Shown here piece by piece: positions 18,420 to 63,952 of a stretch of DNA of 64,000 nucleotides (the first letter of the stretch is position 1; each line of letters begins with the position of its first letter). This DNA is from Pseudoselenomonas ruminantium. GTDB lineage: Bacteria > Bacillota > Negativicutes > Selenomonadales > Selenomonadaceae. Where the stretch lies: positions 159,328 to 223,327 of the forward strand of contig SVBX01000001.1 in assembly GCA_015058655.1 (NCBI GenBank). Reading direction: 5' to 3'. The notes beneath the pieces are model-generated. The model did no database searches, was not told where the DNA came from, and saw only the letters and a program-made list of their open reading frames with translations. The position numbers and the translations under genes were made by a program.

Positions 18420-19124
18420 ATGATTATCTACTCTTTAGGGGCCATTGCCCTTGTACTTCTTTTCATCTTATACAAGAAAACCCGCAGCCGCAAGGCCTTC
18501 TACGGCTTCACCCTTACCATCGGACTGGCAGGAGCCATTGCCTACTTCGCCTGGCCTGCCGCCCAATCTCCCCAGGAGGGCATCACTGACGAGCAGCGCT
18601 ATGCCGTCATGCAGGAGCAGCAAGTCTTTGCCGCCTGGTATGAAGGCTACCAGAAGGACCTCAACGAGCTGGACCGGAACTGGCAGTGGTACCACCACAT
18701 CCTGGAAAGCTTCAAAGAAGACAACATCAGCCTGCAAACCACCTACGCCCTCCTGAAGCAGCTGGAGCTGGACAGCAACCAGCTGAAAGAGCGCATGGCT
18801 GCCCGCAAGGTGCCCCTGGAGCTTTCCGACTACACCTACGACCAGACAGCCCAGCTCCTGTCCAAGACAAATGACTACATAGGAGCTCAATGCCGTGCCA
18901 TCTCACTCACCCGGGCCGCAGCTGACCCTGCCCTGATGCCCGCTGCCGAGCAGCCTCAGCAGAGCCAGCTCCTGCAGACGGTGATGATACGTGAATCCCC
19001 GGTGAAGCTCTTCATCGCCGATGAAATCGAAGCCATCAGGCACCAGCTGGAACTGCCCAAGGAAAAGACTCCCCTGCCAGAAGAAATTTCTCAAAACACA
19101 AGCAACGTCAAGCCTTCCCCTTGA
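18420..19124 (+). CDS. Hypothetical membrane-anchored protein
   Basis: 234-aa ORF with N-terminal TM helices; divergent from the ABC transporter; GGAGG RBS upstream. Confidence 0.7.
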   Translation: MIIYSLGAIALVLLFILYKKTRSRKAFYGFTLTIGLAGAIAYFAWPAAQSPQEGITDEQRYAVMQEQQVFAAWYEGYQKDLNELDRNWQWYHHILESFKEDNISLQTTYALLKQLELDSNQLKERMAARKVPLELSDYTYDQTAQLLSKTNDYIGAQCRAISLTRAAADPALMPAAEQPQQSQLLQTVMIRESPVKLFIADEIEAIRHQLELPKEKTPLPEEISQNTSNVKPSP

Positions 19125-19133
19125 GGGGAAGGC
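19111..19133. repeat. REP-like palindrome AAGCCTTCCCCTTGAGGGGAAGGC spanning the CDS end
   Basis: Same core as MITE arms at 60.93-61.07 kb. Confidence 0.6.
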
Positions 19134-37633: not shown

Positions 37634-37784
37634 CTGCCACTGCCTGGGAGCCCACTGGGCTCCCGCGCCTACGCGCCCCCTCAAGGGGAAAGCTTAACTT
37701 AATGACATTGGCACCACAATACGAGCAAAAACTGGCTATTTCATCAGAAATTTGCTTGCCACAACTATCACAAATCCTTCCCAC
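37602..37784 (-). pseudogene. Zinc-ribbon N-terminal ORF with C-terminus encoded by the MITE remnant
   Basis: GTG start; GRICDSCGKQISDEIASFCSYCGA then NVIKLSFPLEGARRRG... read from the element. Confidence 0.45.
37605..37710. mobile_element. Degenerate copy of the 60.9-kb MITE (right TIR intact, left end eroded)
   Basis: Ends in GCTTAACTTAATGACATTG identical to the right TIR of the 60920-61104 element, preceded by CTCAAGGGGAA; left boundary approximate. Confidence 0.6.
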
Positions 37785-50925: not shown

Positions 50926-50940
50926 CACATTGAAACGAAT

Positions 50941-51080
50941 TATAAGGCCATTGTTCCAGTTTTGCCGTAGGCAAAACTTCCTCTTGGCCTTTCAACGAGG
51001 CGGAAGATATTAACTCGCCTTATGTTAGTAGTTTGTCCCCCCACTTATGGAAGTGGGGGACATCTTGTTACTCGTTATAC
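50941..51080 (-). repeat. Dispersed ~140-bp hairpin repeat, copy A
   Basis: Reverse complement shares long blocks with 61115-61243 and 63854-63952. Confidence 0.85.
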
Positions 51081-51099
51081 TTTCTTCACAGCCCCATAT

Positions 51100-56140: not shown

Positions 56141-56191
56141 GCTGGCACAGTTCAAAACGCCGCACCTCATCCACCGCTTCGCGGTCCCCCT

Positions 56192-56215
56192 TCCCCTCAG
56201 GGGGAAGGCTTTATA
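56192..56215. repeat. REP-like fragment related to the 60.9-kb MITE arms
   Basis: CACCTCATCCACCGCTTCGCGGTCCCCCTTCCCCTCAGGGGGAAGGCT nearby resembles 61021-61073. Confidence 0.5.
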
Positions 56216-59686: not shown

Positions 59687-59875
59687 TCACTTCTCTACTC
59701 TTATCGCTCCCACCGGGCAGTCCTCTGCTGCCTGCAGAGCATCATCTATGGCGTAGTCAGGCAGTTCCCGATAGCCCTCTGCCAGCCCCTGCTCTCCCAT
59801 GCGGAACCCTTCGGGGCAGGCCTGGGCGCAGAGGCCGCAGGCCAGACAGAGTTTTTCGTCCACATATCCTCTCAT
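59687..59875 (-). CDS. 4Fe-4S ferredoxin
   Basis: CLACGLCAQACPEGF...AEDCPVGAIRVEK. Confidence 0.88.
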   Translation of the reverse strand: MRGYVDEKLCLACGLCAQACPEGFRMGEQGLAEGYRELPDYAIDDALQAAEDCPVGAIRVEK

Positions 59876-60825
59876 GGCTGCCTCCTTACGCCCCTGCCGT
59901 CGAAGTCAGGCACATATTCCTCGCTGGCGGCTCTCCGTTCCTGGATATAGCAGCGGGTAATGCCCAGCTCACGGGCGTGCTCCACCACAGACTCATACTC
60001 GAAGGTAGTGAGGCGGCGGTTCAGATGCTTGAACTCTCCAGCCCGGTACATGGGAGTATACTGGCTCATAAGGCTTATCTGCACCTCATCGCCGAACTCC
60101 TGCCAGAGCCAGTCGAGAATGGCCATGCTCTCATGGCGGTGGCCGGGCAGCACCATGTGGCGGACTATGACACCACGCTCAAGACTGCCTTCCTCATGGA
60201 ACCGCAGCGGCCCCACTTGCCGGAACATAGCCCTGATGGCAGCTTTAGCTGCCTCAGGATAGTCCGATGCCGCAGAATATGCCCCCGCGCTTTCCCCACT
60301 GAGGTACTTCAAGTCAGGCAGGTAAATATCCACATACCCTTTCAAAGCCTCGATGGTTTCTTCCCTTTCGTAAGCGCCGGAATTGTAAACCACAGGCAGG
60401 ACAAATCCCCTTTCCTTCGCCATGGCCAGGGCATGGATAATCTGGGGCACATAGTGGGTGGGAGTCACCAGATCAAGGGTGGCAGCTCCCCGCTCTTGCT
60501 GCTCCAAGAAGATTTCCGCCAAACGCTCGTCCGTCACTTCCTCCCCCTTGCCCCCATGGCTGATTTCATGGTTCTGGCAAAAACAACAGCGCAGGTTGCA
60601 ATAGGAAAAAAAGACCGTGCCCGCCCCCTTGTCCCCCGTGAGACAAGGTTCCTCCCAAGGGTGCAGGGAAACAAGGGCTATGCGAGCTTTTTCACCCGCA
60701 CCGCAGAAGCCGGCCCGCTCATACCTATCCACGCCGCAAGCCCTGGGGCAAAGGCGGCAGTCATGCAAATCAATAGTCATAGTCAAAACACTCCTTGCTA
60801 AAAAGGCTAACACCTGCCGCATCAC
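59872..60825 (-). CDS. Radical SAM protein (PflA/PflX-like)
   Basis: CRLCPRACGVDRYERAGFCG; FFSYCNLRCCFCQNHEIS CX3CX2C. Confidence 0.88.
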   Translation of the reverse strand: MMRQVLAFLARSVLTMTIDLHDCRLCPRACGVDRYERAGFCGAGEKARIALVSLHPWEEPCLTGDKGAGTVFFSYCNLRCCFCQNHEISHGGKGEEVTDERLAEIFLEQQERGAATLDLVTPTHYVPQIIHALAMAKERGFVLPVVYNSGAYEREETIEALKGYVDIYLPDLKYLSGESAGAYSAASDYPEAAKAAIRAMFRQVGPLRFHEEGSLERGVIVRHMVLPGHRHESMAILDWLWQEFGDEVQISLMSQYTPMYRAGEFKHLNRRLTTFEYESVVEHARELGITRCYIQERRAASEEYVPDFDGRGVRRQP

Positions 60826-60898
60826 TTGGCAAGAGGAGAGGAAAAACTTGCAGGAAAAGCCTTTTATGATATGTCCACGATGATATAACTCGGAAGAA

Positions 60899-61243
60899 GA
60901 TGTCCCCCACCTCTGTAGGCAATGTCATTTAGTTAAGCCTTCCCCTTGAGGGGAAGGTGCCCCGTTAGGGGCGGATGAGGTGGAGCGTTCTCTCGTTAAT
61001 CTGCCTTATCTTGTTCATTTGCACCTCATCCGTCAGCCTTCGGCTGCCACCTTCCCCTCAAGGGGAAGGCTGTTGAGACAATGATGCTTAACTTAATGAC
61101 ATTGCCTCTGTAGGTGGGGGTGGCTAATATCATAACAGGCGGGAGCGCATATCTCCCGCCTCGTGCGACGCGAAGCTAGTCCCTGTGGGAAAAGGCCAAG
61201 AGGAAGCTTTGTCTATCGACAAAGCTGGAACAATGGCCTTATA
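60899..61243 (+). repeat. Dispersed ~140-bp hairpin repeat, copy B, interrupted by the 185-bp MITE
   Basis: GATGTCCCCCACCTCTGTAGG [MITE] CCTCTGTAGGTGGGGGTGGC...AACAATGGCCTTATAA. Confidence 0.8.
60920..61104. mobile_element. 185-bp MITE with 18-bp TIRs (17/18) and 10-bp TSD
   Basis: CAATGTCATTTAGTTAAG ... CTTAACTTAATGACATTG flanked by CCTCTGTAGG at 60910-60919 and 61105-61114. Confidence 0.9.
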
Positions 61244-61274
61244 ATAGAGAAACACTATCCTAAGGAGGAATTTC

Positions 61275-61859
61275 ATGTCAGAAGAAGAACTTGCCCGGGT
61301 GCGGAAGGACACGCCCCATTTTTTCTGGGAACTTTTCAAATCCACCTTTCTCATCAGCGCCTTTACCGTAGGGGGCGGCTTTGTGATCATACCGCTGCTC
61401 CGCGCCAAATATGTAGACGAATACGGCTGGCTGGACGACAAGGAGACCCTCAATCTCGTTTCCATCGCCCAGTCCATGCCAGGAGTTGTGGCCTGCAACT
61501 CTGCCATCATGCTGGGCTACCGCATGGCGGGCCTTGCAGGCACCCTCACCACCCTTTTTGCCACCATTCTGCCGCCGCTCATCACCATTTCCATCATCTC
61601 CTGCTTCTATGATCTCTTCGCCCATAACGAATATGTGCGCTACGCCCTCAAGGGCATGCAGTGCGGCGCCACTGCCATCATCATCAATGTGGCCTATGAC
61701 CTCTTGAAGAAGCAGCTCAAAAAGAAACTGGCCCTGCCCCTGGCCATTATCGCAGGCACTTTTATCGCCAATTACTGCTTCGGCATAAACATCATGCTGC
61801 TGGTAGTGCTGGACGGCCTTATTGGCCTTGCCCTCATGCGTGACAGCAAGTACAACTAA
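61275..61859 (+). CDS. Chromate transporter, half-length subunit 1
   Basis: FWELFKSTFLISAFTVGGGFVIIPLLRAKYVDEYGWL; SIAQSMPGVVACNSAIMLGYRMAG. Confidence 0.9.
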   Translation: MSEEELARVRKDTPHFFWELFKSTFLISAFTVGGGFVIIPLLRAKYVDEYGWLDDKETLNLVSIAQSMPGVVACNSAIMLGYRMAGLAGTLTTLFATILPPLITISIISCFYDLFAHNEYVRYALKGMQCGATAIIINVAYDLLKKQLKKKLALPLAIIAGTFIANYCFGINIMLLVVLDGLIGLALMRDSKYN

Positions 61860-63853: not shown

Positions 63854-63952
63854 GTATAACGAGTACAAGATGTCCCCCACTTCCATAAGTGGGGGCGGCA
63901 AACTACTAACAGGCGGCGAGTTAATATCTCCCGCCTCGTGCGACGCGAAGCT
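63854..63952 (+). repeat. Dispersed ~140-bp hairpin repeat, copy C (homology ends at 63952)
   Basis: GTATAACGAGTACAAGATGTCCCCCACTTCCATAAGTGGGGG...GGCGAGTTAATATCTCCCGCCTCGTGCGACGCGAAGCT. Confidence 0.85.

Follow-up and report, generated by a model that had tools for sequence, protein, structure and literature searches.

The 185-bp element at 60920-61104 of the window (the whole 64,000-nucleotide stretch analysed) is a MITE, a real example of an element whose family and mechanism are already known, and it lies in the hairpin of an older dispersed repeat. The explanation that we favour as a whole, with a probability of roughly 93%, is that an IS4-family transposase mobilises the MITE in trans, that targets are cut with a 10-bp stagger at the centres of inverted repeats, and that the insertions are close to neutral. 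The only part that could surprise specialists is the preference for hairpin centres.

The element and its copies in the genome

The features of the locus are, in order:

60884-60888, strand not assigned: TATAA on the left of the outer repeat, part of its 5-bp duplication; a single TATAA is present in the empty sites of G001, G003 and G004
60889-60919, plus strand: outer repeat, left part (CTCGGAAGAAGATGTCCCCCACCTCTGTAGG) with the left hairpin arm; ~40 genome copies, 78-100% identity
60910-60919, plus strand: left copy of the target site duplication (TSD) CCTCTGTAGG, exact 10-bp duplication
60920-61104, plus strand: MITE, 185 bp; 9 full-length genome copies, 93-100% identity
60920-60937, plus strand: left terminal inverted repeat CAATGTCATTTAGTTAAG; ends shared with the IS at G000:C11:175-1596 and the intact IS of G060
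about 60936-61071, strand not assigned: core, a palindromic repeat with two half-hairpins (GCCTTCCCCTTGAGGGGAAGG...) that is dispersed and also occurs by itself or in another inverted-repeat element
61087-61104, minus strand: right terminal inverted repeat, CAATGTCATTAAGTTAAG on the minus strand
61105-61114, plus strand: right copy of the TSD CCTCTGTAGG, exact 10-bp duplication
61115-61239, plus strand: right part of the outer repeat
61240-61244, strand not assigned: TATAA on the right of the outer repeat, part of its 5-bp duplication

The original prediction of a 185-bp MITE with 18-bp terminal inverted repeats and a clean 10-bp target duplication was correct to the base. The ends, CAATGTCATTTAGTTAAG and CTTAACTTAATGACATTG, match at 17 of 18 positions with position 11 as the sole mismatch, and the duplication is exact on both sides. 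The interior had been described as a long imperfect hairpin, and the single-stranded DNA fold of the element indeed reaches -65.3 kcal/mol compared to -24.1 +/- 3.4 for shuffled sequences (z = -12). A scan of the element against Rfam gave no RNA family above threshold. The element is thus short, without coding capacity and bounded by terminal inverted repeats, it is present in multiple copies with unrelated flanks and TSDs, and its ends are common to an autonomous-type element (of which the copy in this genome is probably inactive and that in G060 intact).

The genome holding the window is of the Selenomonas type and comprises 3.12 Mb. A search for further copies in it had been proposed, and the nine full-length ones, three of which are identical, differ in their flanks and TSDs. 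Including variants with other interiors, 25 end pairs can be read genome-wide. Seventeen of these have exact TSDs (14 of 10 bp, one of 9 bp, and two of 11 bp), in agreement with the ~10 bp of the IS4 family, and near-duplications are found at some of the end pairs without an exact TSD. As a control, the end pattern was read backwards, which gave no pairs in the genome. A chance match is excluded by the nine full-length copies, whose flanks and TSDs differ from place to place. The prediction was to be given up if neither further copies nor an IS with the same ends existed and if the direct repeat was also present without the element; all three points turned out otherwise.

Two partial cases were noted in addition. 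A one-ended remnant of the MITE, whose right end adjoins a core half-hairpin, is located at 37677-37710 of the window (minus strand), and no second end was found for it. The region C39:29030-35021 was considered as a large transposon, but its ends are 6 kb apart, enclose unrelated chromosomal ORFs and have no TSD, so that it is better described as two separate remnants.

The insertion sequence with matching ends

A full IS with the same terminal inverted repeats and ~10-bp TSDs had been proposed as the partner of the MITE. Such an IS was found and belongs to the IS4 family, with the ~10-bp TSD seen only at the MITE copies. The copy in the genome (G000:C11:175-1596) has a length of 1422 bp, MITE-type ends and a 364-aa ORF. 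This ORF matches NCBIfam NF033592 at 122.7 bits (cut-off 115) as well as Pfam PF01609, which identifies its product as an IS4-family transposase, and contains the IS4 motif Y-(2)-R-(3)-E-(6)-K as YRMRWGIETSFRFLK. Its nearest named matches are from S. ruminantium and a Selenomonas MAG, and it is from them that the genus of the genome was deduced. Compared to the 428-aa transposase of G060 and to a Paenibacillus relative it is without ~77 residues between D2 and E, and its catalytic spacing of 73 and 53 does not fit the D(60-110)D(100-150)E of the IS4 family (PMC2266710). Because the G060 and Paenibacillus relatives retain the longer D2-E stretch, and because a spacing of 53 stands against the published 100-150, the 1422-bp copy is probably a degenerate and inactive IS4-family element. 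Given the missing residues and the fact that no TSD is readable at this sole IS copy in the genome, it may not be the active helper. Apart from the genome's own copy, the search for an intact close transposase among 189 genomes of the family revealed only fragments.

An intact IS is present in G060, which belongs to another family of the class. It is 1598 bp long and encodes a 428-aa transposase (NF033592, 191.5 bits), and its ends are identical at 18 of 18 positions, with CAATGTCATTAAGTTAAG on both sides. A simple direct-repeat TSD is not readable at either of the two G060 copies. These copies (L102 and L107) are inverted, and each is situated within long inverted repeats (CCCTTGCAATAGACAGTT...). 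Deletion derivatives with preserved IS ends, 208 and 343 bp in length, are present in G004, the 343-bp form being also found in a Selenomonas MAG. These derivatives show a route from the IS to small forms. We infer that an IS4-family transposase would recognise the CAATGTCATTWAGTTAAG ends and move the non-autonomous MITE in trans, and that a cut-and-paste reaction with a 10-bp stagger in the target would leave the CCTCTGTAGG duplication.

Members of subgroup IS4 are characterised by ends of the form -AATR--------WTW-, TSDs of 10-13 bp and a size of 1400-1650 bp (PMC2266710 Table 1), and some of them show a strong target-arm specificity (PMC2266710). The end CAATGTCATTAAGTTAAG fits this consensus, and the likeness extends to the TSD length, the single transposase ORF, the YREK motif and the IS size, the latter for both the genome's own copy and that of G060. 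What sets the genome's own copy apart from the subgroup is the shortened region between D2 and E. The IS231 subgroup was considered first based on TSD length and a GTTAAG end. This subgroup is found mainly in the Bacillus cereus group, with ends CAT-------AA--TAA and TSDs of 10-12 bp (PMC2266710). It shares the TSD length and some insertion specificity, but the ends found here start with CAA and not with CAT, and the published consensus of subgroup IS4 fits better.

Target preference for hairpin centres

The MITE and its IS relatives appear to favour the centres of inverted repeats, both the outer-repeat hairpin and intrinsic terminators. Five of the 21 MITEs with reconstructed sites share one position in the CCCCCA...TGGGGG hairpin of the outer repeat, a coincidence with a probability of about 1e-15. 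This position is also occupied in G004, by seven IS-type left ends with ~80% identity to the left end of the G000 IS; the contigs stop inside these seven elements, whose transposase is deduced from their ends. With G004 included, this hairpin position has been hit in 12 copies of the outer repeat. Six of the remaining 16 sites are terminator-like hairpins with A- and/or T-runs (C1:37435, C9:40474, C9:145726, C9:162004, C32:11811, C34:15832), and about half of the sites outside outer repeats do not contain a strong hairpin. The hairpin score of these 16 sites is higher than that of random window positions (Mann-Whitney P = 7e-6, with a background that includes coding DNA).

It might be argued that the hairpin bias reflects selection instead of a choice by the transposase, insofar as insertions into genes would be lost, those into terminators and intergenic repeats would survive, and intergenic DNA is rich in hairpins. 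This explanation would concern the target preference only, and we regard it as rather improbable. Pairing is not just raised in intergenic DNA but has its peak precisely in the middle of the duplicated target (mean 5.7/12 versus 2.8 +/- 0.45 in the rest of these flanks), and the centre value is still 4.5 versus 2.8 +/- 0.49 if the outer-repeat sites are left out. In addition, the 12 outer-repeat copies, including those of G004, have been hit at the identical hairpin position.

A transposase preference for inverted-repeat centres would have led here to the hairpin of the older ~140-bp repeat. The symmetrical MITE would fold as one long hairpin, and its insertion at a hairpin centre would lengthen the stem without a break. 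In predicted RNA folds the original stem is retained beneath the MITE hairpin in eight of eight filled sites, which suggests that terminators survive MITE insertion. Insertion into intrinsic terminators is therefore probably close to neutral, since the hairpin is lengthened instead of broken. It is a more speculative and on balance doubtful idea that a group of IS4-type transposases recognises hairpins as such, perhaps as extruded cruciforms, with a hairpin MITE stacking on the target hairpin and the terminators still working. A literature search for terminator-targeting IS elements found no direct precedent in the papers covered. Whether an IS4-type element chooses inverted-repeat centres as targets, those of intrinsic terminators among them, where a hairpin insert would do little harm, can be put to the test in this system. 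If true, this would help to explain how MITEs reach a high copy number without damage to genes. New in the present data are the hairpin-centre bias, the predicted survival of the stem, and the finding that the interior of the MITE is a third dispersed palindromic repeat.

The core repeat inside the MITE

Among 30 core copies examined, 17 have MITE ends, four are in a TTTCATAAA inverted repeat, three show a one-sided match and six have neither. The element hosting the four copies has GCGTTTCATAAA ends, and the core is carried by at least two different inverted-repeat elements. Because the MITE interior is a dispersed repeat that also occurs without MITE ends, the nest consists of three and not two layers, namely outer repeat, MITE, and core repeat. 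The 20-bp palindrome of the core occurs 84 times in the genome (both strands). Of 399 genomes sampled from the phylum, only two others contain it in exact form; both belong to the same family, in which related forms are common. The core seems to be largely restricted to this bacterial family.

The occurrence of the core without CAATG ends could also mean that the core itself is the mobile unit, with the CAATG ends belonging to the target. This is very unlikely given that the duplications adjoin the CAATG ends and not the core, and that the same ends are found with another interior (C41:33507 and C9:42015) and at the IS itself. The core may, however, have moved separately in the past.

The core (CCTTCCCCTTGAGGGGAAGG) has exchangeable inner hairpin modules, and half copies are present in the window at 19111-19132 and 56156-56211. 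The loci L013, L014, L017 and L021 contain another inverted-repeat element with ends like GGGGCGTTTCATAAAT that carries the core and possibly has a degenerate flank repeat of 12-14 bp.

The outer repeat and the order of insertion

Nesting in a ~140-bp repeat had been predicted, and deleting the 185-bp element together with one TSD in fact leaves CCCCCACCTCTGTAGGTGGGGG. Nearly all of the ~40 genome copies of the outer repeat are bounded by TATAA on both sides, as read by eye from the flanks. At the present locus the nest is situated between a radical-SAM gene (59872-60825, minus strand) and a chromate transporter gene (61275-61859, plus strand). The search for an empty site elsewhere was successful in three congeners: the orthologous intergenic site in G003, G004 (flank 98% identical) and G001 has a single TATAA and neither outer repeat nor MITE. 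In a fourth congener, G002, an outer-type repeat is present at the same TATAA and the MITE is absent. This might be a parallel insertion because G001, which is similar in its flanks, is empty.

To judge from these sites, the outer repeat is itself an insertion at TATAA. It was placed there, upstream of the chromate transporter gene, before the MITE entered its hairpin, because the three congeners are empty of both and the outer repeat is bounded by TATAA. The order of insertion is thus readable from the comparison, as had been claimed. This makes the locus a nest of small elements in three layers, with the order fully resolved and with orthologous empty sites available.

That outer repeats carry the 185-bp unit along, so that it does not spread by its own ends, would account for several MITE copies sharing one position inside outer repeats, but it has next to no chance of being right, since copies that have TSDs of their own in unrelated flanks refute it. 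Most full-length copies are found away from outer repeats, and their TSDs adjoin the CAATG ends exactly; the copies inside outer repeats differ in interior type and mostly also in TSD sequence, and the hairpin of most outer repeats is empty.

Mutual nesting is also found in other bacteria, and the pneumococcal BOX, RUP and SPRITE repeats insert in one another (PMC10969869). Like these and bacterial MITEs in general, the elements described here are short, non-autonomous, hairpin-forming and mutually nested, but they have other ends and belong to other families. A literature search for such elements in Selenomonas found no paper. At the present locus the outer repeat splits a TATAAT-like motif upstream of the chromate transporter gene. 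Other copies of the outer repeat in the window are located at 50939-51083 (minus strand) and at about 63854-63952.
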